The translations under genes and the position numbers were made by a program. Shown here in pieces: positions 1,490-64,000 of a DNA stretch of 64,000 nucleotides (position 1 is its first letter; every line of letters begins with the position of its first letter). Where the stretch lies: the NCBI GenBank assembly GCA_019914995.1, contig CM034130.1, positions 186,001 to 250,000 of the forward strand, given 5' to 3'. This stretch comes from Acanthochlamys bracteata (taxonomy: Eukaryota; Streptophyta; Magnoliopsida; Pandanales; Velloziaceae). Below the pieces are notes generated by a model. The model saw nothing but the letters and a program-made list of their open reading frames with translations. It was not told the origin of the DNA and did no database searches.

Positions 1490-4400
1490 TCACACTCTAA
1501 GTCCAGCCAGAAAGCTCACTGTTGGTGATAAACTTTCAGGGAATTTTGAGGCACCAACGACAGGAAGCATGTTTTCTAATGAGCTGAATGGAATGTGTTC
1601 TGGCTTCGAAGCATTCTTTGCTGGGCGCAAGCAGGCAAGGCGACTATTCTGATGGCTGTTGCAGATTGGGAGTTTGCTAACTGGAACGATTGCCTCTTCT
1701 TCCTTTTTAACTGGAGCTCCTAGAGGATCCTGTCACAAAGAAAAGCTACATAAGATCTGCAGGCAATAGTCTAAATGCATGATCGTCTTAGTAAAGCAAA
1801 GGCACATCCGATAGTCATAACAAAATAAATTAAATATTCTCAAAAGTAAAGAAAACGTAGCTTATAAGACTCCAAGTTTAGCAAGATGTACGTTTCATGC
1901 CCCAAGATAGTAGAAAAAACTAGCTTAAACACTAGGGTACTTGAAGTTATATTGTTCTACTAAAAGTTAAATTTCATATTGACTAGAGAGCAAAAATAAT
2001 ATCAGAAGAATCTGACATATGATAGAACAGCTAGAAGAAAACTCACCCCAAGTAGGAGAAACGAAAACGGCCTTTTGTTGTTCTCTTCCTCCAAGTAGGT
2101 TTCAATCAGCTTCCTCAAATCTGCGAGCTTGGAATTCTTCATTACCTTCATTATCTTGATCAGATTTCCCATTGATTCTTTAGATGCTTCCCACTTTATG
2201 AAAACTTCCATCAAGCAGTCATCTTCTGCTCCTTCAGGTATGCAGTTCTCCTTTTCTTGTGCTTGTGCAGATTTCTGCTCATGTTTGAATGACAAAGATG
2301 CAAATGGCATGACTATTGCAGAGATTGGGCTCTCACTTGTCTTTATGTCACTGTATTTTGTTGCACCTGCTTCATTTACATTGAATTCCTTGACTAGTGG
2401 CAATGGCGAAGTATTATTGTTTCTGTCCTCAGAACGTTTCTTAAATGGTGATGTCCCTTTAACCTGCTGTGCTAACTCCCTGTAGTTTCCACAGAGCCTA
2501 AATATGTTTTGAATTCTCGTCCTCCTGTCAGATGGTACATCTTTTTCATTCTCCATGAAACTGCCAGCTCCTTCTTGCCTATCGAGGACATAGCTACCAG
2601 AGTCACCATCTACATCCTGATCAACATCATAAGCATGAGATCCCACAGAGTCTGAAAACATGTGAACACCTGATTCTTTGTTCTTGTGGCTGCCATATAG
2701 TGTGCTAACTTCCACCACTTCCTTTTCCACTTCATCATCTTGTGTGCTTTCTCCTTCTTCACCTTCAAAATCAGTTTCAAAAACTGTAGTCAAGCATGCT
2801 CTGCCAGGGAAAGTTGGGAGTTGATTGGTATCAATCTGGTCTTCAGTGCCCACTGATGAGTGAAGACTTGATGGGTCAACAGCATTATTACTATGTCTTT
2901 GATGACCCTCCTTGATTTCTCTTACGTCAAGTAAGCTTGGTTGGTCTCCCATATCCAACTCCATAGATTTCACCATTCCTTGATCCCCATCCGCATAAAG
3001 TTCAGTAAGCATTTTCACAAATCTTCCCACAGCTATAGGTTGCTTTGCACTTTCACCTGGTTTACTCTTCTCAAATTCCAGTTCTTCTGATCTTTGCCTC
3101 AACAAATCTAACTCCTCTTGCTGCTTTAAGACCTTCTCCTCCATCTTCAACAGCTCAATTTTCAATGACCGCGTTCTCTCATCCACCTTAGAGTTGATTT
3201 CCTTTCCATTTACTGATGAGGGCTTTCCTTCTAGCTGTTGTACTCTAGCACTTAATCGTGCTATTTCTTCCTCCTTCCTTGAAAGCTCCTTATTAGCTTG
3301 GTCAATCTCCTTTTTTTTAAGCTTATTTTCTGTCTGCAGCTTATAGATGAACTGGTTCATAGCTTCAATCCTTGATCTTAAGAATACAGATGACTCCTCC
3401 TCAGAATTCATTTTATCCTTAGGGGTTGACATATGAGCATTTCGGACAATGCATTTCGCTTTGGCACCATATTCAAGTGTTGCTATAGTCTTATGCAGCT
3501 CTTTAAAGTCAGGGCTCGCACAAAGAATCATCAGAATCTTGGACTTGTCATCCTGAAAGGAATCCTGTAACAATACGAAAGAACTTTCTTTATTCATTGT
3601 TTATATCTTTAGTTAAAATGCGCAAGGATATTATTTCTACCTGTAGGAGCATTGTGAGCTTGCTGTCTCTAAATGGGACATGAGAGTCACCATTTGCAAT
3701 GCACTCAACAACTCTTTTCAGCGCTATATTTCCTTGATTTATTTTAGCTGTCTGCAAAAAGTCATAGGGAATACAACTTCAGAAAAATCTCAAATTAGTT
3801 TAATGGCAAAAGAATTCCAAGGCAACATTTGTATTAACTTTGATCAAAACTACAGATACAAGAGGTAATGGATGCTGCGAAGTTGTACATATTACCTGCA
3901 TCTTCGCCTCCAATCCAATTTGTCCAGCTTGATCGATGTTTTCGGAACCAGCCATATCAACAAGCATTAACCTTCCTCCCACAGATGGAACATCGAGTAT
4001 TATCTAGCAATTTAGCAGTAACAAGTTTCAATACTAGATTCAAGGTTTAGGAAAAAATCAATGCAACTAATAATGACGAGCAAGCAACTGACCATGCAGT
4101 GACTTCGTGAACTTCTTTCATTGCAAAGAGTGCTTTTAACAATCCGACGCTTCTCAACTTTCATAAGCTCTCTCGACAACTTTGCGGCTTCATTACCACA
4201 GAGATGAGTGGCATTCTTCGCCTTCTTACCCATCACCTCTAGCTTCACCTGTTACCATAGATAAATTCTAATTCAGGAAACTAGACAGGCCTGGTTCTTA
4301 CTACTTTTCCTCACAAATGCAGCATGATATCAAACCAAACAAGAACTCTTCTGGCTATGCAAAAGATTCACAAAAGTTAAACCAAACCAAAACAAGAACT

Positions 4401-5232
4401 CTTCTACCATAAAAAAGACTCAGAAACATGTAAGATATCATCAAGAAATTCTCCCAATAAACCTTAAATTAGAACTTTTGTAGGCCGGAAGATCAAGATT
4501 CGATCTTTAGTTTCAAAACACACAAAATTGAAACCAAGAGCCGTAGAATACACTGACCTTGGGAGTGCTACCTTTGGGGATCTGCGATCCAGTAATCAAA
4601 CCACCTGCATTTCCATTCCCTGACAACAAATCATAGATCTCCTCGTTGTAAATCTCCACCACCGCCACCTGAACAAACATACCAAGCCTGAAACCCGCAT
4701 CATCGACACTATCACCACCACCACTACCGTCTCCTTCACCATTATCTCCAAGGATATTTTTCAAAGCTCTGTAGAGGATCCCCGGTTGGTTCGGGCACCC
4801 GAACATTGTATGGCTCTTGCCCGATCCCGTCGGCCCGTACATCATCACCGTACACTTCGCTCCTGCCTTCACTCCTTCCACTCTCGATTCAATGAATTTC
4901 TTGTAGAAAATCTCCAGATCTTCATTATCCGCAACTGAAACCCCATCGAGCATGAAATCCCTGTACCCGATCTCAGTCCTAACCCTAATCGACTGGCCAT
5001 CAGGCCCCAAATCGAGCGCCGGCGGGTGGGGACCACCGCAGCTGTCTCTGATTCTTCCTATAACTTCTACAGGGTGCTCGGTGGGGACTGTTGGGGCGGT
5101 GGCGGAGGAGGTGGTGGTCGGACGGGGAGTGTTGAAGTGGAGACGGTGTTTGATACTGGTGGGAGTTTTGGAAGGTGTACCAACGATCGCCGCCGGCGGC
5201 GGAGCCGGCCGGGGAGACGGAGTTGGTGCCAT
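1490..5232 (-). CDS. KIN10A: Kinesin-10 family motor, PAKRP2/KIN10A
   Basis: Six exons (4558-5232, 4093-4248, 3896-4003, 3641-3751, 2047-3564, 1490-1729), all phase 0, join into 935 residues. The motor has the P-loop GPTGSGKS at 133-140, switch I NERSSRSH at 268-275 and switch II LVDMAGSE at 291-298, and ends near LEYGAKAKCI (about 389). A charged coiled coil follows (roughly 410-545), then an acidic low-complexity tail and a conserved C-terminal block with ADLRKLIETYLE. The whole resembles Arabidopsis PAKRP2 (AT4G14330), a plus-end motor on phragmoplast microtubules thought to carry Golgi-derived vesicles to the cell plate. The N-terminal 50 residues are Pro/Thr/Ser rich, as in that family. 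The start is the first ATG of the frame. It is slightly longer than I recall for the Arabidopsis protein (about 870), mostly in the tail. Confidence 0.95.
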
Positions 5233-5486
5233 TGACTGATTGATCGATTGATTTGTTCCTCCTTACGTAAGTTTTGAACGGAGAATGAATGAAGAGTAAT
5301 GAAAAGAGATTCGAATTTAAAACCCAAGTAGCCGTTGGGGGTTAACGTCTCTCTATTTCTTTATTGTTCTTCTTCTTCGGTTCAGGGTTATGTATAGAAG
5401 GGTACACTGAAATTACAATGAGTTTGCATTTGAGTTACATCTGAAGAACATACAAATGTTTTCACAGTACCAGATGAACAATATGG

Positions 5487-5721
5487 GGCGTGTTTATTTA
5501 GACTTAACTTAAAATTTTTTTATCAAAAATTTTATTTTTAACTTATTTAATAAAAAATAAAATTTAAAACTAGATTCAATTTTTCCAATAAAAATTTTAT
5601 TTTTAAACTATATTTTAAAATAAAAAACTTCACACTCATTTTTTAAACTCTATTTCTAAAACATTCATCTTTCATAACTCACTTTTTCATATAACTCTAT
5701 TTAAAATAAAATAAACACGCC
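5487..5721. mobile_element. MITE-like element with GGCGTGTTTAT termini
   Basis: A 235-bp AT-rich block bounded by GGCGTGTTTATTT at the left and its inverted complement AAATAAACACGCC at the right. The inner sequence is poly-A/T with no frame. No clear target duplication flanks it, so the superfamily is open, although the termini resemble those of the Harbinger element at 55639-63420. Confidence 0.6.
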
Positions 5722-5739
5722 TGATAGTTTATGAGGATA

Positions 5740-5955
5740 TCTGAAAACACTTTTAAAATAAAATTTTTTTATAACGAATATATTTTTATTTTTTATAAAA
5801 ACAAACTTTTTTTAATTAAAAAATAATTAAAAATTTTCGCGTTACATAAAATATTTTATATTTTTAAAATTTTAAACAAATTCTCTAAATATTTATAAAA
5901 AAATATATTAAAAAATTAAAAAACTGTTTTTGGAGTAAACAATACCAAATGACTC
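5740..5955. repeat. Degenerate AT-rich MITE family copy
   Basis: Shares the internal pattern of the better copy at 6001-6250: an A/T-rich left arm, a short TTCGCGTTA centre, then TTTATATTTTTAAAATTTT and ATATTTATAAAAAAATATATT. The ends are eroded, so its boundaries are approximate. Confidence 0.4.
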
Positions 5956-6000
5956 CTATATAAGGTATAGAAAGTACACCCAGGCGGCAAGCACCGGCTA

Positions 6001-6250
6001 GGGGGGTATTTGGTAGTGCTTATGAAATGAAATTTTTTTAAAATAAAAGATATTTTTATTTTTTTAAAAAAACGAACTATATTTTTTTACTTTTAAAAAA
6101 ATAATAAAAATATATAATAAAAAATCTCACTTCGTAAAATTTTTTTATATTTTTAAATTTTTAAATAAATTTTTTATATATTTATAAAATATGTATTGAA
6201 AAATAGAAAATTGAAAAAGAGTGTTGGGAAAAAGCAATCCAAACACCCCC
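6001..6250. mobile_element. AT-rich MITE with GGGGGTRTTTGG termini
   Basis: A 250-bp element that begins GGGGGTATTTGG (from 6002) and ends with CCAAACACCCCC, the inverted complement with one mismatch in 12. The core contains CTTCGTAAAATTTTTTTATA and AAATAAATTTTTTATATA, which recur at 19223-19458. A flanking TA on both sides could be a short target duplication. Confidence 0.6.
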
Positions 6251-6415
6251 TATATTGGAATCCAATATGTGTGCAGGCAAAGGTTGGAATTATATGGTAA
6301 ATTACAGCCTTTTCACGTAGCAAGTACTAATCCTACCTCATTTTTGACATAGATACAGAAAAGTTGCAGTTGTATATGCGATCTTAAGGTGGAAGAAATG
6401 CAAATAGATAGTACG

Positions 6416-8258
6416 TTAGGCTTTTACAAAAACCCTGAGTTCCCCTCTATCACCACGTGTGATGCGCACATCTTCATCGAGGTATGTAACTTCGAATTCA
6501 CCACTCCCAGTGTTTGATGGAGGTCTCAGTTGGTCGGGGATCCGAGGAAGATCGAGTGGAGGAAGCTGTGAATAGTCTCCTCTTGGCTTGACAGTAGTTT
6601 TCTGGAATACTATCTTTATATTTGTAGTTCCTGCAGAATGTCCCAGATCAAACCAATTTGAATTGTAATAAATTGGAAAGAACCTCTAAGAACACAAACA
6701 AACAAACAAAGGATTTCAAAACTAAATTACAACCCACTTAGAATAAATACTGAAACAAAATACTAAAAAGTCGAAAATGCAAAAGGAGATCCACCTATAA
6801 GCTCAAATTTGTGAGCTAGTGTTGCTGTAACTTCAAAAGGAGGAAGCGGCCAGGGAGTGCCCAACTGGAGCTCCACAATGTTGTCAAAATCTTTGTTGAG
6901 GATGTCAATCCGCTGAAAAACCTGATTTGTTTGGAAGATATTAGCTATCTAACTGTCAGCGCAAATCTCTAATGAACATATTCCCCTCCCATAAGAAATC
7001 ATTAAAGAGAGTCTTCTAGTGATAAATGCAATAGCATCTGTACCTGTCCTAGAGTAATGGGCAATAGCCTCCCTATGGGAGGTCCAGGGCGGCTTCCGCC
7101 AATTGTGCGAGAGGAGAAAGCGCTACTATAGATTAATTTCCATCTTCCCTGAAGTTTGTCCAAGTCAGTGGTTAGATCAACAATACCCCCAACAGCTTCA
7201 AGTTCCTTCGCTGCCGATTCTGCACTTCTTAAGTCTTCTTCATTAGCTGCTAGACCTCTATTCAACCCAGAAGCACTACTCTGCATCCAATCACCACACG
7301 TTAGTTAAGAACCAAACTTAAACTCATGTCAGCGCAAAACATGAGCTACTGGAACTCAAATTCAATGGTGAGCTAAACCATGAAACTGAAGGATGTGTTC
7401 ATAACCTAATGACATAATGCGTGACTGCAGTTTTTGGCTCCTGAATCTAGCAATCAATTCGAAGAACACAGTACTAATGCTGTCTTCTTTCTTTCAGATA
7501 ATTTCATAAACAACAACAGACAAAGTAGCAGCTTAACAAACATGCACAACACAATGAGCAGCATATATGATTGGTGATGGAGCCCCTATTTGTCCCTAGT
7601 TACCACCTAGCTACAATTCTACAGATAAGTTAGTTAGTTAGGTTAATGATCATAGTTGTTACACCTTAATTATTACATGTAGCAGCAATTGAAGGAAGAG
7701 ATTTTTTATTTTTTTTAATGATCTTTGATATTGAAATGGTAAGTGCAACTAATTTGACCAAATTGACATAAACATACATTTTTTTAATCCTAAAATTTTC
7801 TGAACAAAGCTAAACCAAATCACCCATATTTGCTAATTGCTAGTAATATCATCTTTATAACGTAATCTTTTTCCAACTTGAAATAAAAAATTTGCTGATT
7901 AAAGAGAAATCGAATCATACGCATTAGCTAATAGATACAAATCTCATCTCTATATTCTCACACCACACTAATTCAACGCAAACAAACAATCACAAACACC
8001 AAAAGCAAGAGAACTTGAAGTCACCAGAAGCTTGAATTTGAGACCATCGATCCGGTCAGCCTGTGACTCGCTGTAATTAGAAGGAGACCCGAGAACCGGC
8101 GACTCGTCCAACGCTGCCGATGGAGTAGTAAAACCGAACTGAGTTAACTTTCGTTTCAATCTTCTGTGAACCGGAAGTCCCGTGACCTCTGGTTGCGTGC
8201 GGCGTAGTGGCGAAGAACAAGGACAAGAAGAAGGTGCTAGAAGGGAAGCCGTAGCCAT
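6416..8258 (-). CDS. FBN4: Plastid-lipid-associated protein, fibrillin 4 (PAP6)
   Basis: Four exons (8025-8258, 7044-7280, 6795-6921, 6416-6630) join into 270 residues. The first 70 or so residues are Ser/Pro/Arg rich with few acidic residues, as expected of a chloroplast transit peptide. The fibrillin/PAP domain follows: SGLNRGLAANEED, DKLQGRWKLIYSSAFSSRT, GGSRPGPPIGRLLPITLGQ, then IVELQLGTPWPLPPFE, and the C-terminal FEVTYLDEDVRITRGDRGELRVF. This order matches fibrillin 4, a plastoglobule and thylakoid protein linked to plastoquinone content of plastoglobules and to stress tolerance. Exon phases are consistent throughout and the stop TAA is at 6416-6418. Other fibrillins are less likely because of the ITRGDRGELRVF ending. 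Confidence 0.93.
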
Positions 8259-14533: not shown

Positions 14534-14777
14534 GTGCGTTTGGAATTATTTATGAAATAAAAATAGAGTGTTTTTGAAATGAATAAAATTTTTTTTGAAA
14601 AATTAAGCTCTATTTTTTTTAATTTTTAAAAAATAATAACATATGTAATAAAAAAATTTTATTATGTAAAATTTTTTTATACTATTTAAATTTTTAAATA
14701 AAATTTTTAAATATTTATAAATATATATTAAAAAATATAAAATAAAGAAAAGTTAAAAAGTTGCACTGCCAAATGCA
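14534..14777. mobile_element. AT-rich MITE with TGCRTTTGG termini
   Basis: Starts TGCGTTTGGAATTATTTATG and ends with CCAAATGCA, the inverted complement of TGCATTTGG. The core has the same A/T block order as the copy at 6001-6250, including TTATGTAAAATTTTTTTATA. Confidence 0.55.
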
Positions 14778-19222: not shown

Positions 19223-19458
19223 GCGCGTTTGGAATTGATTATAAAATAAAAAGTATTTTTATTTTTTTTAGAAAATAAGTTATATTTTTTTACTTTAAAA
19301 AAAATAATAATAATATATAATAAAAAAATTTTACTTCGTAAAATTTTTTTATAATTTTTAAATTTCTAAATAAATTTTTTATATATTTATAAAATATGTA
19401 TTAAAAAACGTAAAATGAAGAAAAATAAAAAAAAATTAATAAATAGTTTTTGAAACGG
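19223..19458. mobile_element. AT-rich MITE copy (GCGCGTTTGG end)
   Basis: Closest relative of the 6001-6250 element. It shares ACTTCGTAAAATTTTTTTAT and TTTTTTATATATTTATAAAA with it at the same relative positions. Left end GCGCGTTTGGAATTGATTAT; right end near GTTTTTGAAACGG is eroded. Confidence 0.55.
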
Positions 19459-19802: not shown

Positions 19803-20015
19803 GAATGTTTGGCTTGAAACGCTGCTTATCGATATTTTTTCATTTTATATTTTTTAATATATATTTTATAAATATATAAAAAATTTATTTAAAAATTTAG
19901 AAAGTATAAAAAAATTTTATGAGATCTTTTTATTGTACATATTTATTATTTTTTTAAAAATAAAAAAAATAAAATTCATTTTAAAAAAATAAAAATACTT
20001 TCTATTAGAAAACTG
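19803..20015. mobile_element. AT-rich MITE copy, inverted
   Basis: Begins near GGAATGTTTGGCTTG, and the A/T blocks (TTTTTTAATATATATTTTAT, AAATTTATTTAAAAATTTAG) are the reverse of those in the 6001-6250 copy. The right end near 20015 is uncertain. Confidence 0.45.
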
Positions 20016-54585: not shown

Positions 54586-54904
54586 CGCTACTACAAAAAA
54601 GACCATCACTGACTGACGAAAGCAGTCGGTATGCGGAACAAAACAATCGCTAAAGACAACTAAATACTTCACCGATTAACAAAATGAATCAGTCGGCATG
54701 TAAAGAACTTTACCGACTGAGACAATAGTCGGTAAATCACGGACTGCTTAACTAATCGGTAATATACCGACAATCAATATAGTCTCTGTGTTAGTCGGCA
54801 TCTTTCAGAAAATTAGCGACTAGTTTAACTTTTGTGGGTAATAGCAACATCTACTGACTTATTTACGTTGGTCAGTAAAATTCGTAGTCTTATTTGTGGT
54901 AGTA
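54586..54904. mobile_element. CACTA-like non-autonomous element
   Basis: A 319-bp element with left end CGCTACTACAAAAAAGAC and right end GTCTTATTTGTGGTAGTA. The ends match as inverted repeats at 14 of 18 positions and resemble CACTAC-ACAAA termini. TAT flanks both sides (54583-54585 and 54905-54907), fitting the 3-bp duplication of CACTA elements. The inside holds at least seven copies of a CAGTCGGTA-type motif in both orientations, like the subterminal transposase-binding repeats of that superfamily. No coding capacity. Confidence 0.7.
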
Positions 54905-54989
54905 TATACTGGCCGCGAGCAATTTCAGTTATTACTTTCATTTAAGAATCCTATCATGTACCACTTTTCCATGTGAACCACAAGAGTAA

Positions 54990-55145
54990 GAGCCCGTTTG
55001 AGATTTTATTTTTTTAACGGTGATTTTTAATTATATATTTTTTAATATATATTTTATAAATATTTAAAATTTTATTTAAAAATTTAAAAAATATAAAAAA
55101 AATTAACCTAATAAAATTTTTTTATTATATAATAACAATTCTAAG
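54990..55145. repeat. AT-rich MITE family copy, inverted
   Basis: Begins GCCCGTTTGAGATTTTATTT and continues with the A/T blocks of the family in reverse order (TTTTTAATATATATTTTATA, then ATAAAATTTTTTTATTATAT). The right end is not clear. Confidence 0.45.
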
Positions 55146-55638
55146 AGAGTTTGAAATAGCAGAGACTGCAGAAACTTGGAACATGATGCTTGGCCTTAAG
55201 TGCTTCTCTAGAAAACCTTCAGCGTCAAATGTCATCTGGAAGCTTGTGGCTTGTTGGTTTTGATGTACTATTTTTTTTTTTTGAAAGATTAACTACTTCT
55301 TTTAATCCTTGTGCTAAATCTCTTGAGGAGGTCAGTTGTCTGATCCTCTAGTTTGTTGATTCCCTCTTGAAGTAATTTAGCGAAGCTGATAATTTGATTA
55401 TCTATGCACTGTAATAAAGCATGAAAGAGAGAATTAGTTATGTCAGTTACTCTATTACTCCTAGAGCTTTCAAAGAATGATATCTATTTCTTGATGATAC
55501 ATGGAAGTTTTAGCTTTCAGTTCATTCCCAATAGGTACTCTTAGCTTTGTTTTTAATGAACTAACATTTCTCATCAATCAGTGTTCCATGGCCGAAGGAT
55601 CTCAGATAATAATACTGCAATTATCAGATGCCTATTTA

Positions 55639-55671
55639 GGGCGTGTTTACCAACGTGATAAACTCGAGTTT
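55639..55671. repeat. Left terminal inverted repeat of the Harbinger element
   Basis: 33 bases starting GGGCGTGTTTACCAACG and ending TAAACTCGAGTTT, preceded by TTA. Four mismatches to the right repeat, at repeat positions 13 and 18-20. Confidence 0.9.
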
Positions 55672-57138
55672 TTTTCAAAAACATCTTCACTTTTAATATA
55701 TTTTCAGAACAGAGTAAACATAAAACTTACACTTCCACGCAACTCAACTTTTCACCAAAAAGTAAAGTTCACTGAAACTGTTCCTGTGAACTTCCCAAAA
55801 CATTTTCTTCGGCCGATCTTCAATGCAGATCTAGAACTTTTTTTTCTCACCATCGTCTTCTAAATTTGAGATCAGATCTGACTGGATCTCTCCCTCTTTC
55901 GGTCGATCTACTTCCGATCAGATCAAATTCCTCGCAGATCGATCACAAGCTTGCATTTTGAGGTTTGTACATCAAGTTCTACTTTTAAGGAATTAGCTAA
56001 TTAATCTTCAAAGAAAAATTATCCTAACTCTGTTGTTTGCCTAACTTTATAAAATATTATTGATTTTCGTGGTTGGAGTTAAAAGATCTCTAAATCATAA
56101 CAGTTTTCCAAGTAATTTTTCAACTTTCTGACGAGATTGTTTGAAACAGAATGGTTAATAAGTGATGTTCCTTGAATCTGATTTTTTTTGTTTTTTGTAA
56201 AGATCGAATCTGATTGCTGTATTTCCCCTTTCTTGTCGCTATTTATTGACAAAAAATGTTTGGAGTGGATTCAGATGTAGCGATTTACTTTTTAAAGACC
56301 TTTATCACTTAATATGATAATTGATCATATGAAAGTTTAGAAATTCTATTAGTAATTTGGTTTCCCTAAAGCTAATTTATTTATGTTTTCATGGCTGGAT
56401 GATTTTACTTGATTTCATGTTTTATTGTATTTAGTTTATCAAAGTGCTTACTTGTAATATTTTGGGTTCAGTTTCTTGTAAAAGCTTGATTTTGAAAAAT
56501 TGGGTAAAAATTATTAGCAAAACAGTTGATTTATAACTATAAATAGAGCTAGAAGTTAGATTTAGGAATAAAAGATGGACCGAAAGGTACCAAAACTACC
56601 AAGCATGACACATCTTTGACTGATTGAGATCATGGATGATGCAGTGCTCATAAATATCTTGTTGTTAAGTTAGTAAGCTTTTTCTAAATTCAATATTTGA
56701 TGGGTGCCTTCACTTTCTGTTTGAGCTTATATGCAAGATTAGTTCATGTGGACACAGTATGTTGTATTGTTGTTTGCTTGTTCTCTCTTGAGTTGTATAA
56801 TTAATTTTTTTGTTGATTATACTATGTTTTCCGAAAACTCCTGATATGGTGCTCTTGTTCCGGATGGTTCATTGTGCTTATGGCTAGTAAATATTTGTAA
56901 TGTTTAATGACTTTATTTTTTTGGATATGCTAAATACTCATCTCTTCTTTCTCTGTGTCTAGGGTTTAAGCTTTGATTACATCTCTCATATAAGCTTGTT
57001 TTGCAAGAAGCAACCTTTTAACGTCCAACCTATACCACTACCAGGTACGACCCTAAAGCTAATTCAAAACTATCAAATTAAGAGTTTGGGTGCTTTACCG
57101 TGTTTATTTATCAATCAGTTTGCTTGTTTTGGAAATAG
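55672..57138. other. Harbinger 5' non-coding region
   Basis: About 1.5 kb between the left repeat and the transposase ATG. It probably contains promoter, leader exons and a leader intron. CACTTCCACGCAACTC and GATCGATC-rich segments lie at 55730-55945. No protein frame recognised. Confidence 0.5.
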
Positions 57139-58494
57139 ATGGATCAGCGTAGGAAGTTCATTGCTTGTTTTGCTGCACATGCAGTGATGCTTGTTTTAAT
57201 CACAGTCATTAACAAATTTTCTTCAAGACATGCCACTGTTCCTCGTGAACCATCCGTACTTAGGCGTTTGAGTAGGGCTTCACATTTATGTCGAATACTC
57301 AGAGGAGAAACAGATAATTGTGTTTCCTATCTTAGAATGAATGCAGATGCTTTCATCAACCTTGCCCAAATACTGCGTAATAATCATTTACTAAAAGACA
57401 CGAAATATGTCCTAGTAGAAGAGCAGCTTGCATGCTTTTTGCATATTGTTGGACATAGCAGAACTAATAGGGCGATGAGGATCGACTTTATACGGTCAGG
57501 TCGGACAGTTCATCGCTGCTTTCGACGAGTGCTAACCGCCATATGTAAGCTTAAGAATGGGTATATAATCCAGGCGACATCAAATGAACATCCACGTATA
57601 CAGGCAAATCCTAATTGGTATCCGTACTTTAAGGTATAATATATATAATGTATGTTCTTATAAGTTGTGAAAAAATTAGTTATGATAAGTTAGGTCAATT
57701 AATGTTTATCAAATCATCTTGTAGGATTGTATAGGTCTAATGGATGGTACACATATACTTGCAAGAGTTCCTGCTGATTTGACAGCACGCTTTCGAGGTC
57801 GAAAGGGTGTTACTCAAAATGTTTTAGGATGTTGCGACCCAGATATGAGGTTCACATATATTTTGGCCGGTTGGGAAGGATCGGCTAATGACTTCACTGT
57901 ACTAAAAGATGCATTGAGTCGACCTTCAGCGAGTCGTCTGAATGTCCCACAAGGTAATAACTATATACCATTCACCTTGTAAGTGACATGTATATACGCG
58001 GGACATTACAAAAGTTTTGTTATTTTTTGAGTGTAGGAAAATATTACCTTGTTGATGCGGGATACACAACTATGTCGGGCTTTCTTGCTCCATATCGGGG
58101 AGTGCGTTACCATCTGAAAGAAATTATTGGACGTAAACCAGAGAATTCACAAGAACTGTTCAATTTTCGACATTCTTCGTTACGAAGCACGATAGAGAGA
58201 GCTTTTGCCTTATTGAAGGGGCGATTTAGGATGATTCATCAATATCCTTATTATCCTTTTCCAGTTCAAGTCAATGTTGTGTTGGCATGTTGTGTATTAC
58301 ATAATTATATATTGAGTATGGATCGTAACGACATGATTTTGAATGATTCTAGAATATATGAGGAATATGAATATGATCTGCAGAATTTCAGCACTAAAAG
58401 TCAACATGAGCAGCGTTTGGAGAATACAAAATGGCAAGAATTAAGAGACAAGATTGCAAAGGATATGTGGCATGATTATAGTAAGGATCTGTAG
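57139..58494 (+). CDS. PIF/Harbinger transposase (DDE_Tnp_4, HARBI1/ALP1-like)
   Basis: Three exons (57139-57633, 57725-57953, 58037-58494) give 393 residues, the usual length. The N-terminal part (SVLRRLSRASHLCRILRGET, LAQILRNNHLL, LACFLHIVGHSRTNRAM, GRTVHRCFRRVL) is the helical DUF8040-like region typical of plant members. The nuclease part holds DCIGLMDGTHI (Asp172), GWEGSANDFTVL (Asp221), KYYLVDAGY (Asp248) and LRSTIERAFALLKGRFRM (Glu295). These are the conserved acidic positions of the family; which Asp is the second catalytic one I cannot settle by eye. PYYPFPVQVNVVLACCVLHN closes the domain. No stop or frameshift. It would cut and insert the element at TTA together with the Myb-like protein encoded next to it. 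Confidence 0.94.
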
Positions 58495-58784
58495 TATTGC
58501 TTCAGTTACTTAGCTTGTTTTGTAGTAGACAATGTATATAGTAAATATGTCAGTCTGTGTTTGACATAACTTATAACATGAATGACAGTCAGTTGTATGA
58601 ATTTTAATATTCTATTTTTCTTAAGTTATTGAATTATTTACAATAAATGTTGGTATATACGTTGTATTTTTTTGTGTGAGATGGCTTTTTATTTGCTCTA
58701 ATGTGTTTATTGTTAGCTTATGTTTTATCTTTATTGTTTATTGTATAACTAGTATGATGAGCTTCGTACTTGTCAAGGTTACAG

Positions 58785-59857
58785 ATGTCGGGGAACTCTG
58801 ATTCAGGTCAAGCTTCACATTTGTCCCTTCCTATGCGAAAGGGAATGTCTAACAAAAGGTGGACATATTTTCAGGATGAGAAGCTTATCGAATTTCTTGC
58901 CGAGCAATGTAGACAAGGTAAGAAAGTGGACAAGGGTTTTAGAAATCCTACCTTCGTTGCTGCTGCCAACTATATCAATAGCATGTGTCACACGGATTTC
59001 ACATCTAAACATGTTGACCACCATTATCGTACTTTACGTCGGAGGTGGCTTCTCATTAAATTTGTGCTTAGTATTAGTGGGGCTGGTTGGAACGACGAGC
59101 TTAAGATGATCGTATTGGATAAGGAGACTGAGAGGGAGCTTGTGCAGGTATATTAGTTGATTAAGCGAGTTTTGTTTTTAATGAACGTTAGTTGCGCATT
59201 AGTTTACATATAATATGCATTCTTTTGGTAACATTTTTCAATACTTTATTTATCCGTAATCAAGTGTTTTGTGTCGATGGATTGCAGAGTAATCCGAAAC
59301 TCAAACCATTCATTAATACACCAATTCGTTTGCTGGATGAGCTACGAATGATTTGTGGAGACGATGAAGCCACTGGACAATTTTCTAAAATTGCTCCTGA
59401 TAATTTTGGAGAGTCAACACCAGAAAGTGGCCAAAATACTAGGTCAACGGATGAAACTAAAGATGATACAGACTTTCCGCCAATCATGGAGGAGTTACGA
59501 GATCCTACATCTTGTCCTTCACAGAGTAGGCAACCTTCTGTTCCACTGTTTTACTTTTCTTCACCTGCACGAAAAAGGACCAAGCATAGACATGGCAATG
59601 ATGACAACAAATTTCAGGAGGAACTAGTCGCCTCTGTGCGAGAGATTGCTTCGGCAATAAGAGAATTGAAAGAAGATTATGGTAAAGATGTATTAGCTGC
59701 TCTCAGAGCAGTGTCTAATGATTTTTCGGAGGAACTAATTGGGTTAGCATATGATGAGCTAATGATGGATGAGAAGAAGGCGCGTGCATTCCTTGGAAAA
59801 GATGATGCATTGCGAAGGCAATGGATGTGTTGTTTTATCGCTACGCATGGTTACTAA
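58785..59857 (+). CDS. Harbinger Myb/SANT-like DNA-binding protein
   Basis: Two exons, 58785-59147 and 59288-59857, give 310 residues. The first exon carries a trihelix/Myb-like domain of the Myb_DNA-bind_3 type: KRWTYFQDEKLIEFLAEQCR, GFRNPTFVAAANYIN, SKHVDHHYRTLRRRW, SGAGWNDELKMIVLD. The second exon has an acidic linker, a basic cluster PARKRTKHRHG that may be a nuclear signal, and a C-terminal helix EELVASVREIASAIRELKED, then a conserved-looking ELMMDEKKARAFLGKDDALR. In rice Ping/mPing and zebrafish Harbinger the equivalent protein brings the transposase into the nucleus and binds the termini. It starts 290 bases after the transposase stop on the same strand. The ATG at 58785 is preferred; sequence upstream in the frame has no ATG. 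Confidence 0.9.
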
Positions 59858-60255
59858 GTTGTTGTGTACGACTTTTTGGATTGCATATATAATGTTAAAG
59901 TGGCACTATCTTATTTTGTAACAAATATTAGTTATGCCAATCTAATTGTTCTGTGTTTTGTAGAATGTAGATTGTAACTTATTGTAGCAGTAATGTCACT
60001 TGAATGTAGAATATATGTTACTGGTTAAGTTGATAAGTTTAATGTATAATATATGTTGGTTGCTGCATTGAAGTAGCAGTTGTAGCTCTACTGATGACTG
60101 TGTAAGTTCATATTTTTTCTTTTTCTTTTGCTGCTTATAACAACTAGCTGATGGTCAATTTTGTGCAGTTGTGAGAGAATATTTTTTGATGAAACAGTTG
60201 CAAGTCCTTTACTTCTTGCTTGTAATACTTACAGGAACTTGTGTTTAATGTACAG

Positions 60256-61081
60256 GCAATGGCGTCTCTTGCTTCATCTGCAGAAGCCGATCTAAATGCA
60301 AAGAAACTGAGGTGAGTTGTATTGCTTATTACGATCCTTTAAAGGCTTAATATAGTCAATTAGCTAGGCCTTGCTATTCTTATCTTGCTTGAGCAGAGAA
60401 CTTTGCAAGGGTATTGACAAGTTGGTGCTTTGTTTCAAGAATCAAGCCCCTGCAAGAGCTACTCTGATGGCAAATATAACATTAATAAAAACCATTTTAT
60501 CTTGTGGCAAACAGAAAAAACTTGTCGGACTGACTTTTGCCCTCTTAGAATGATACGAAACTTCCAAATCATTAGATTTAAGTAGCTGCTGTGACAAATG
60601 ATAGTGCTAGTTACTTTGCAGTTATGCTTGTATTACCATAATGTAGCATTGACGCACTTCACCTATTAAAAGCATTACAACTGGCAATATTGTTGGCTGA
60701 CTTTGATGTGAAATTGACATGTTTCTTTTAATCCAACGAAGTTGATAGTGAAGACTGTTTTGGTTGGTTAACAGAGATGGAGCAGTTACAATTCTGATAT
60801 TATCCATATGAAGAAATTATGTTTATGGGTGGTCGATATTATGAGCTATTAGGGAGAAGGAATTGGCTGCTGTCAAGATCAATGCTGCTGATGTTGAGAT
60901 TATTGCTAATGAGCTTGAGGTAAACTTATATTCTCTATATTTAAAACAAGTTAGCTTAATACTTGGTGACGTTTTGGGTTTACTGTTATATGTATAGTTG
61001 GACAGGAAGATTGCCGAGAGAACGCTACGTGAGCACAAAGGTGATGCACGATTCTTTGCCATCCGCTTTTTGCTTCACTAG
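60256..61081 (+). pseudogene. Captured HYPK-like gene fragment inside the transposon
   Basis: Three exon-like blocks with intact splice sites: 60256-60311 (AMASLASSAEADLNAKKLR), 60853-60919 (EKELAAVKINAADVEIIANE) and 60998-61081 (LDRKIAERTLREHKGDA, then AIRFLLH and a stop). Together they give the C-terminal two thirds of plant HYPK, a UBA-like chaperone bound to the NatA N-terminal acetyltransferase, but the N-terminal exon is absent. The block GDARFFAIRF differs from the GDAVAAIR I recall for the family, so one extra residue and two replaced ones lie in the UBA helix. Introns are kept, so capture was at DNA level and not through a cDNA. A fusion transcript from the transposon promoters is possible. 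Confidence 0.78.
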
Positions 61082-62279
61082 ATAACCGAGATGCCTCTCG
61101 CTTTTCTTAAAATGGCGTGTTTTTTGGTTTTTTTAACCGTGGATGTTTATTCAAACTCTAGTGCTCAGTATTTAAAAAAAAAAACACGTCCTTTGGGATC
61201 AATGGTAGTGATTTTGCTACCGATTTTGGCCGTCCTTGTAGAATATGGTAAAACATTATGCTTGTTGAATCATCATGTATGCAAAAAGAAAACTAGAAAT
61301 GATCAACCCGATATTCGTATGTAGAATAACATAAGACATTTAATATAATGAATACGTGAGATAATCGGAAAGTTTCCATTCATTTATGTACATAAATTTC
61401 TGCATCAACGATGATCGGGCGACTTCGCTCGTGCAGTATAGCGTGTTCTTGTTCTATATACCTCTCTCATACTTCGTCGATTCTCTTATGCAATTACCAT
61501 TTATACAAGTAACGTGACTCTGCTGGCAACCTCAAACAAAATAAACAAGCCTCTTTGACCCTCCACAAACACCGACAAATTTTTATCCTCATAGACAATA
61601 TACTACATCCGTTGTAGCCGGTGCTTTTTTTCTCTCTCAACAAGTTCATGACATGGTCCAATTAGTGGCACAAAACATGAAGAAGCATGTCCTTAGTGAT
61701 TGAATTGATACAAAAGGTCAAGTGCCAACACACCATACCTGAATATATTTTCTCACTTTTGATGTGATTATCGCAGAACTGGAGAGATGCAAGGTGATCG
61801 GGTCGATCCGATGATGCATATGATCGGCACCTCTGAAAGGTCGATGACTTCAATCCATAATAGTTTACGTCGTCATCTTGATGATTTAACTGTCATCTTG
61901 ATCATTTAACTGTGGAGCTTCTAGCATGCTCTCCTTTGCATTGAGCGTTAAGAACCGATTTTGCAGCATAATCGCCTCGATATCTTTTTAACTTTTCCAA
62001 TATCTACTGGAAACTTGGGCGACAACTTGGCTCACTGCACATGTACATTCAGAGAAACAATAAAGATTGCAATATGAAACATGAAACTAAACGCTGAATA
62101 TGTGATGAAAAATTGAAACCTGTGCCAACAACTCTCGATTATTGCCCCCATCATGGGTCCAAGTCCTCTGGGAGATCCAGTCTCTGGTTCATAAACCCGA
62201 TGGCTCCAATAATCTGGATAAAACTTTCTAAATTACAGAACCTTCAAAAAAAATCATTGACCATGAATTCAAACTGAGA
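61082..62279. other. Harbinger 3' cargo, HYPK 3' flank and unassigned sequence
   Basis: The first 200 bases or so probably continue the captured HYPK 3' region. The remainder has balanced composition and short frames on both strands, none recognised. Confidence 0.4.
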
Positions 62280-62690
62280 TCAATTAAATTGTAATTGTCT
62301 GTTTGTTGAACTTTGCAAATGAATCATTAGACTTACTAATGGAAGAAGTAAGAGAGCACGTGCTGGTAGAGGAGAAATGTTTGCTGGAAGAGTAATGGTG
62401 TTTTTCTTTCCTATGGGAAGAAGTCGTCGATGGTGAAGGCATCAAGTAGTACCCAAGTTTCTCCTTCAAGCTTTCGACTTCAGTTTCTTTACCTTGAGCT
62501 CCTTCTTCACATCTTCTAGTGTAGCTTCATACGGTGCCACCACCTCCTTCAACGGCAACGTTTAAGGCTTCACTGTAGCATTAACTACGCCGTTGCACCG
62601 GAATCTGTCACAGAGGCGGGCGACTGTAGCATTAACGAGCAGCATCACTGCTCGAACTAGCCCCATCAATAAAAGCCTTAGTTGCCATCC
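62280..62690 (-). pseudogene. Decayed coding stretch in the Harbinger 3' part
   Basis: On the minus strand an ATG at 62690 gives MATKAFIDGASSSSDAAR and a stop. Shifted frames then read VNATVARLCDRFRCNGVV, LPLKEVVAPYEATLEDVKKE and, after another shift, ETEVESLKEKLGYYLMPSPS with a Ser-rich end near a possible donor at 62335. The pieces look like one broken coiled-coil protein. I do not recognise its family with any confidence. It may be a second captured host fragment. Confidence 0.4.
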
Positions 62691-63387
62691 TATAAAATTC
62701 TTCAAAAAAAACAAACACAAAAATTCAAAATTGAGCTCGTCGATATCTAATTGGGTAAAGTAGCTGCAGAGATCGATTAAATCTGAATTGAAATAACTGA
62801 ATAAACAAATTCAAAGTTCAGGTAAATATAAAACGCTTCGAAATTGAATGAAAGGTTACCTGTTCTGGTTGTCAACTATCTGAATTATCAAGGAGCGAGT
62901 GTTGCGAAAGGCGAGTGCTTGCGTTTGGAAACTGTTTTTGAGTAATAGGGGTGACATCAATATATGTTGTCTTAGCAATAAAAGATCTATCAGAATTCAA
63001 ACAGAATTGCAAGAAATTGGTAGCAAATTTGAGAGAAATGAGAACGAAACTAAGATTTAGGAAAAAATAGAAATAATTTCACACCTGTAATCGAGATTAA
63101 GTTGAATTCATTTGCGACTGTGGTCGAAGTCAAGTCATGACGGGATCACCTTTGAACTTCAACGAAAACGCGGCACAGAGAAGCTGGTGTGGGAGGAAGA
63201 CGAACGAAAGAGATGGAGACAGTAGAGAGGTAGAGCGCTGCCATCACTTCGGCGACTGACACGATCTTCACTTCCGCACCAAAGTAAACACAAAAACTAA
63301 ATTTCAATGTTCACTTGCATAGCAAGGTAAACATAAAAACTAAACTCATTTTCACCAAATAACTCATATTACAAATTCACTGTTTCT

Positions 63388-63420
63388 AAACTCGAGTTTA
63401 CAGCGTTAGTAAACACGCCC
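63388..63420. repeat. Right terminal inverted repeat of the Harbinger element
   Basis: Inverted complement of the left repeat at 29 of 33 positions, ending AAACACGCCC directly before TTA at 63421-63423. Confidence 0.9.
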
Positions 63421-63423
63421 TTA

Positions 63424-64000
63424 ATATAAATGCAAGTTGCTTAATTGTGAAAGATCCAGTTGTTTGTTAGTCAGAAGAAAGGTGTGAAGAATTTCATAAA
63501 TTCCTCTACGCATAAGAGCTCCCCAAAATGCTCTCTCTCCTAACACTAGAACTTCGAAAGATTTCTTCGTTGCTGTATTGGTTGGCCCAATCTGAGCCAG
63601 TTGGATGGAATTGTTCTTTGTCACTGGTCAAACCTTTAATATGTGCTTGCCGACATGGTTGGATGGACTATGGAGGGAGGCCTGATTGATAAATCATCCA
63701 AATATAAAAAATATTTAAAAGTTTTTATAAAATATTTTATAAGAAATTTTTTTAAATAAATAATATTTTTATTTTTTTGAAAAATAAATTTTAATTTTTT
63801 TCTTTTTAAAAAAGTAATAAATTATGCAATAAATAAATTTTATTATATAAATTTTTTTTTATATTTTTTAAATTTTTAAAAAAATTTTAAATATTTATAA
63901 TATATATATTAAAAATATAAAATAAAAAATTAAAATAGAAGATTTAAAAAACGCAATCCCAGCGCCTTGCAGCGTATCTAACGTATACGAGAAGGTAGAC
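63424..64000. other. Right flank of the Harbinger element
   Basis: 63424-63680 has balanced composition with no recognised frame. An AT-rich MITE family copy fills about 63690-63965. The window ends without another gene. Confidence 0.4.
63690..63965. mobile_element. AT-rich MITE family copy
   Basis: Shows the family order of blocks: TTTTTATTTTTTTGAAAAAT, TATGCAATAAATAAATTTTA, TTTTATATTTTTTAAATTTT, AAATATTTATAATATATATA. It ends near AAAAAACGCAATCCCAGCGCC, close to the AAAAAGCAATCC end of the 6001-6250 copy. Confidence 0.5.

Follow-up and report, generated by a model that had tools for sequence, protein, structure and literature searches.

Three exons of a HYPK gene, together with their introns, lie inside a DNA transposon in a 64,000-nucleotide stretch of the Acanthochlamys bracteata genome (contig CM034130.1, positions 186,001 to 250,000; hereafter the window). 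Their position raises the question of where they came from, how they entered the element, and whether they can serve any purpose there. An earlier sequence-only reading had proposed gene capture by a Harbinger transposon. Our analysis, which covered 557 contigs (195.5 Mb) of the genome, leads to the following answer, which we hold to be very probable: a transposase-bearing PIF/Harbinger element copied 2.07 kb of DNA from contig C15, by what we infer to be repair, and carries it as a young, probably non-functional passenger.

The element occupies 55639–63420 on the forward strand (7782 bp) and is putatively autonomous. Its terminal inverted repeats (TIRs) lie at 55639–55671 on the forward and 63388–63420 on the reverse strand; the inverted repeat (I5) measures 39 nt at 87%, a count that takes in the target-site duplication and a few flanking bases. 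The two copies of this duplication, TTA, stand at 55636–55638 and 63421–63423. When the flanks were joined and searched against the genome, the one match besides the flanks themselves was a 141-bp stretch on C3 (73%) that crosses the joint, and at this locus both flanks adjoin without the element (99 alignment columns at 71%; 41 bp at 83%). The ends of the element are therefore fixed, since C3 provides an empty paralogous site. Two hand-spliced genes within the element are open from start to stop, both on the forward strand. The transposase gene (57139–58494; exons 57139–57633, 57725–57953 and 58037–58494) encodes 393 aa without an internal stop and matches DDE_Tnp_4 in Pfam (E=1.2e-22), and the second, Myb/SANT-like gene (58785–59857; exons 58785–59147 and 59288–59857) encodes 310 aa and matches Myb_DNA-bind_3 (E=1.7e-10). 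A DDE_Tnp_4 transposase, a Myb/SANT-like partner, and TIRs with a 3-bp TTA duplication place the element in PIF/Harbinger. MULEs are recognized by a duplication of 9–11 bp and Helitrons by having neither TIRs nor a target-site duplication; with the 3-bp duplication and the TIRs present, a Pack-MULE or Helitron identity is out. Pack-MULEs differ by their transposase superfamily as well as by their longer duplication.

Relatives of the element, whole or in part, were found on C8 (two copies, C8a and C8b), C20, C11, C6, C12 and C14. A short derivative on C14 has a TAA duplication; of the older relatives examined in this respect, C8b fits TAA, and a clean TTA/TAA duplication was not seen at C8a and C2. 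On C17, part of the Myb-like gene is matched nine times at even spacing within positions 2802977–2816304, and the left end of the element five times, which looks like a tandemly amplified derivative. As for the surroundings of the insertion, a stretch at 54590–54905, bounded by CTACTACAAAAAA and its near inverse, resembles by eye a CACTA-type miniature element. An AT-rich repeat family similar to L007 4001–4233 recurs in the window at 6020–6209, 14590–14763, 19239–19442, 19835–20006, 55035–55131 and 63743–63929, and the transposon is flanked, by chance, by two oppositely oriented copies of it.

As the sequence-only reading had described, the HYPK exons with their introns lie downstream of the two transposon genes and on the same strand. 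Exon 2 (60256–60311, +) and exon 3 (60853–60919, +) are identical to those of the C15 parent discussed below, and exon 4 with its stop (60998–61081, +) differs from it at three point sites and by a block that turns VAA into RFFA (GDA-RFFA-IRFLLH in the window, GDA-VAA-IRFLLH in the parent). Together the three exons amount to 207 nt including the stop. The splice sites are intact for introns 2 and 3, both GT...AG, and at the acceptor of intron 1 (TACAG); the donor of intron 1 is absent along with exon 1, which comprises the first 49 codons of the parent. The N-terminal exon is thus missing, as had been stated, and the window copy falls short of a complete four-exon HYPK. The UBA-like part was indeed kept: the spliced 68-aa reading matches the Pfam family UBA_HYPK (E=6.9e-15) and three distinct HYPK sequences in the PDB (best E=3.3e-8). 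This retention is qualified by the exon 4 replacement, as the match covers profile positions 1–34 of 41 in the fragment and 1–41 in the parent, with the final UBA helix changed in the sequence as it stands. A 67-aa frame begins at an in-frame ATG (60259), and intron 2 has lost 134 bp relative to the parent, shortly before its acceptor.

Full-length HYPK genes, each with four exons and 116 codons, exist on C15 and on C10. A protein search of the genome with the HYPK peptide gave six exon matches at three loci, namely the window, C15 and C10, and a DNA search returned the same three. The C15 and C10 loci have collinear surroundings and are therefore ordinary duplicate genes. C15 is the native locus of the sequence found in the window, because its four HYPK exons and neighboring kinase gene are arranged as they are at the C10 paralogue. 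A genome search with the UBA_HYPK family (PF19026) yielded 12 matches at nine loci, six of the rows lying above the cut-off; besides the window, C15 and C10, it reached loci on C1, C8, C2, C11, C6 and C4. The C1 locus was rejected as HYPK as it reads as NAC-alpha (Pfam NAC, E=4.3e-10; TIGR00264, E=2e-13, below its cut-off), and those on C8 and C2 look NAC-alpha-like by eye. The C11 locus has the appearance of a degraded NAC-alpha gene (TIGR00264 at E=4e-6, again below cut-off), and the matches on C6 and C4 scored under the cut-off.

The captured host segment spans 60156–62223 (+) and comprises the 3' part of HYPK intron 1, exons 2–4, the 3' flank and then a reversed kinase gene tail. In blastn, window positions 60152–60847, 60841–61364 and 61369–62223 match locus L008 on C15 at 4195–4897, 5025–5548 and 5639–6507 with 96, 92 and 90% identity, respectively. 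Across the whole alignment, 1910 of the 2054 positions without gaps are identical, and 31 gaps account for 269 columns. Agreement is high in intron 2 (525/541) and intron 3 (75/77) and complete in exons 2 (56/56) and 3 (66/66), the bounds of exons 3 and 4 in these per-part counts being one base off the final exon coordinates. Finding full HYPK loci in the same genome, with the C15 introns aligning to the window, supports capture by the Harbinger element, and an intron-containing copy between TIRs with an intact parent elsewhere is what is called a transduplication. The piece is about 2.5 times longer than the sequence-only reading had supposed, which had recognized the HYPK exons and overlooked the tail of a second gene. 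This tail, from a Tyr/Ser-Thr kinase gene, lies on the reverse strand at 61886–62214, with the last exon at about 61886–62034 and the previous one at about 62120–62214 (boundaries by eye). The joined exons of the parent kinase tail match PK_Tyr_Ser-Thr (E=2.7e-6, Pfam), and alignment to the parent shows the kinase frame to be shifted in the window copy. The segment ends about 9 bp inside the intron that precedes the second-last exon of the kinase gene (by eye). Since two tail-to-tail genes were taken in one block with their introns, the capture occurred at the level of DNA, not mRNA, and a processed retrocopy is ruled out by the presence of introns 2 and 3.

Both joints of this segment can be located. 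Two relatives on C8 match the element up to 60155 and resume at 62236–62237. At the left joint, GTTCA is common to element and donor, and the product is one T short of a perfect join. The right joint holds a 13-bp filler (62224–62236) without clear match to the parent or the relatives, although it may weakly resemble the next bases of the parent. A DNA search of the genome found one copy of the element that bears HYPK.

Two further host-gene fragments, which had gone unnoticed, lie beside the captured piece and derive from older captures. The first (62237–62623, −) is GIL1-like (DUF641) and has a likely donor on C13 (89% over 395 bp); a C14 paralogue of this gene matches DUF641 (E=2.5e-35, Pfam), and the two GIL1-like peptides of the window gave no DUF641 match in Pfam. 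The second (62638–62937, −) comes from a gene with a ubiquitin-like domain and includes its start-codon region; it has a relative on C6 (87% over 302 bp), and the two joined exons of a C4 paralogue match the ubiquitin family (E=8.3e-20, Pfam). C8a contains both the GIL1-like and the ubiquitin-like pieces, and C8b has the GIL1-like piece and other sequence instead of the second. This other sequence in C8b, about 400 bp at L029 1106–1500, is possibly another capture.

These relatives also reveal what formerly stood in the place of the HYPK segment. Between the equivalents of 60155 and 62236–62237, C8a and C8b have other sequence of about 1150 and 1225 bp, respectively, 91% alike. About 250 bp of it resembles a gene on C4 (72–77%), which we take to be of the exostosin/GT47 type, the C8 piece being labeled by its similarity to that locus; the C8 GT47-like peptide had no match in Pfam. 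Parts of this intervening sequence recur in C20, and most of it (about 1–475 and 700–1110 of the slot) may be an old part of the transposon and not cargo at all. In C8a, C8b and C2, the GIL1-like sequence extends about 40 bp to the left of 62237, as in the C13 gene; at this position the window switches from GIL1-like sequence to the filler and then to kinase sequence. Because the GIL1-like piece is about 40 bp longer in these three relatives, the HYPK segment came later and cut into older cargo. The comparison demonstrates that the HYPK segment replaced older DNA, still present in the two C8 relatives and in part itself the product of an earlier capture.

Other members of the family carry yet other DNA in the region that separates the Myb-like gene from the right end. 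In C20, 1.9 kb with a lipoyl-domain frame resemble a locus on C12 (87%); the C20 peptide matches Biotin_lipoyl just under the Pfam cut-off (E=1.9e-4), and we presume from this match that the gene is of the pyruvate-dehydrogenase-E2 type. Two pieces in the same region of C20 are 90–92% identical to C13, and the segment is interrupted by a repeat, about 1.64 kb long, with matches at dozens of further sites (40 of 1104 candidates scored), which looks like a solo LTR. The relatives on C6 and C11 have yet another common sequence there (79% over 1112 bp). On C2, positions 1611523–1612491 (L028, L059) hold an element of about 1 kb in which a GIL1-like fragment is all that lies between the two ends, and which is a candidate for a Pack-PIF in the strict sense. 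The cargo thus reads GT47-like and GIL1-like in the C8 type, with ubiquitin-like in C8a, lipoyl in C20, and HYPK and kinase tails in the window. This suggests, tentatively and with somewhat less than an even chance in our estimate, that in this PIF/Harbinger lineage the DNA to the right of the Myb-like gene, as far as the right end, serves as a cargo bay and has been overwritten repeatedly. The breakpoints of C20 differ from those of the window element; with breakpoints differing between elements, such a bay would correspond to a region and not to one fixed site.

Repair of a break could account for the capture. A break would have occurred inside the element, and a 3' end would have annealed at the short match GTTCA in intron 1 of the C15 HYPK gene. 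DNA would then have been copied from C15 through both gene tails, the 3' half of HYPK and the reversed kinase tail, before the end was joined back to the element through roughly 13 bp of filler. The segment took the place of older sequence, part of it captured earlier, in the interval from the Myb-like gene to the right end. Break repair fits because GTTCA stands at the left joint and filler at the right. A competing model, which we consider unlikely yet the most serious of the alternatives, is that two neighboring insertions flanking the donor fused, as proposed for Pack-PIF and Pack-CACTA elements (PMC8903248, PMC13317346). Such fusion has been published, with the suggestion that it applies to Pack-TYPE elements in every DNA superfamily (PMC8903248), and it would give the same order of transposon, host and transposon sequence. 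However, a filler at one joint and a short match at the other look like repair, and no exact 11-base TIR ends occur in the 9-kb C15 or C10 loci. The lack of an exact TIR end in the donor locus weakens the fusion model without disposing of it, as old footprints would escape such a search and the argument is a weak one.

The copy derived from C15 is most likely young. Divergence from the C15 parent is about 3% in intron 2 and about 2% at 61990–62223. The short C14 derivative, which is without the HYPK segment, matches the ends of the window element at 98.3% over 362 bp and 98.6% over 850 bp; being about 98% identical, it indicates that the family was active recently. When the first 54 codons of the fragment were polarized with C10, the window branch showed two synonymous and no non-synonymous changes, and the parent branch one non-synonymous change. 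So small a number of changes, with the one further difference falling inside a suspect stretch, gives no basis for a dN/dS value.

That stretch, 61041–61990, shows an anomaly at parental CAG/CTG sites, of which 35/41 are changed (34/40 when a site inside a long gap is skipped), compared with 2/45 CAT/ATG sites. Circular shifts of the change mask reached 35 CAG/CTG sites in none of 960 cases. The excess is regional, with 4/26 sites changed in 60156–61040 and none of nine in 61991–62223. The differences in the stretch form clusters on CAG/CTG, many of them multi-base and some single C-to-T, and the CG count rises from 24 in the parent to 37 in the window. Simple deamination of methylated CHG would yield single C-to-T changes. 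In control pairs, counted as reference CAG/CTG sites changed with the rate of other triplets in brackets, the window against C14 gave 0/11 (0.05) and 1/24 (0.03), C8a against the C8b slot 9/36 (0.17), the window transposase region against C8a 14/39 (0.25), and C10 against C15 9/29 (0.55); the right part of the window against C8a gave 7/21 counted on C8a and 17/31 counted on the window (0.24). Some older transposon pairs thus display a milder excess in the form of isolated base changes, which deamination could explain. Modification-linked nanopore errors at GCAGC and GCTGG motifs have been described in Listeria (PMC10687267), and among the papers listed for nanopore errors and plant methylation, no title or opening of an abstract reports such a CAG/CTG pattern. 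We suspect that the likelier cause would be a consensus error on methylated DNA, a biological cause being possible. As the change of VAA to RFFA in exon 4 falls on such CAG/CTG sites, neither dN/dS nor arguments about function should rely on it.

Most probably, the copy of HYPK is a young passenger fragment without function, its lack of function being the part we infer. Alternatively, the captured tails might yield small RNAs, or antisense RNA, directed at the parental HYPK and kinase genes; relative to the genes of the element itself, HYPK lies in sense and the kinase in antisense. The length and near identity of the matches to the parent would favor this, as would the description, in a review, of captured sequences in maize Helitrons, Pack-MULEs and Sireviruses as siRNA reservoirs (PMC13317346); we nevertheless regard it as improbable.

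More improbable still, in our judgment, is a functional new gene, in which transcripts that run in from the element and splice into the HYPK fragment, or that begin inside this fragment, would encode a 67-aa HYPK that lacks the regulatory N-terminal part and binds NatA through its UBA-like bundle. The in-frame ATG at 60259, the GT-AG introns, the identity of exons 2 and 3 to the parent and the UBA_HYPK match all accord with it. Yet the lack of changes at 122 exon 2–3 sites, against about 3% in introns, is weak evidence; intron 2 lost its 134 bp close to the acceptor, the last UBA helix is altered as read, and neither the promoter nor exon 1 was captured. In the crystal study of fungal HypK, a variant without the first 50 residues bound NatA tightly without inhibiting it (PMC5467210), a result that would suit the functional reading. 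According to a review, the loss of HYPK in Arabidopsis has effects like those of depleting NatA, and NatA activity in vivo is facilitated by HYPK (PMC9692967). Given that the first 49 residues are absent, this literature implies that a truncated product could matter if made. It is conceivable that such a protein would be translated from the ATG at 60259, or that an exon further upstream would be spliced to the fragment to produce it, and its competition with the true HYPK, raised by the sequence-only reading, would be a possibility. Finally, the idea that 60256–61081 is the genome's HYPK itself, with a hidden first exon and a transposon inserted into it, draws on the gene-like look of exons and splice sites and retains next to no probability, as it is already refuted by the two intact four-exon genes on C15 and C10 and by the C3 paralogous site, which is without the whole element, HYPK included, and as the fragment lies between sequences that other DNA connects in the two C8 relatives.

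The sequence-only reading had considered gene capture much rarer in Harbingers than in Pack-MULEs and Helitrons. Capture is not exceptional in this superfamily: it has been published for PIF elements in grapevine (PMC2528002) and in maize and rice (PMC8903248). Grapevine PIF transduplications contain exons and introns (PMC2528002), and Pack-PIFs are known from maize and rice (PMC8903248). A close likeness is to grapevine Pifvine-3, a PIF family with a transposase, a second ORF and mostly TAA/TTA duplications, whose extra DNA matches host exons and introns as in the window element; in Pifvine-3 this DNA forms a long 5' region (PMC2528002). In the window element the extra DNA follows the Myb-like gene on the side of the right end, and the overwritten older sequence is visible. 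The Pack-PIFs of maize and rice likewise have PIF TIRs and a target-site duplication around captured coding DNA, and Pack-TYPE elements sometimes combine DNA from several loci (PMC8903248). Pack-TYPE elements are defined as non-autonomous (PMC8903248), whereas the window element, which does hold host coding fragments between its TIRs, keeps open transposase and partner frames. Because of the open transposase frame, it is better named a transposase-bearing PIF element with transduplicated cargo. Rice Pack-MULEs are similar in that host gene fragments are captured at the DNA level (PMC8903248, PMC13317346). Among the papers listed in our literature searches, none of which paired HYPK with transposons, we found no report of this HYPK capture. 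Capture in PIF/Harbinger is already known; what is visible here is the donor, the joints and the overwritten older sequence.

Captures that are young and have an identifiable donor, pre-capture relatives, both joints and an empty site are cases in which the mechanism of capture can be read. The present one suggests that, in a PIF element with its own transposase, internal sequence was replaced through repair copying, and it offers a clear way of finding out whether truncated HYPK is produced. Should the CAG/CTG pattern prove to be a sequencing artefact, it would also caution against computing dN/dS for captured genes on methylated transposons. If the cargo-bay reading is true, the window element, with its own transposase, could move host gene parts without a helper.
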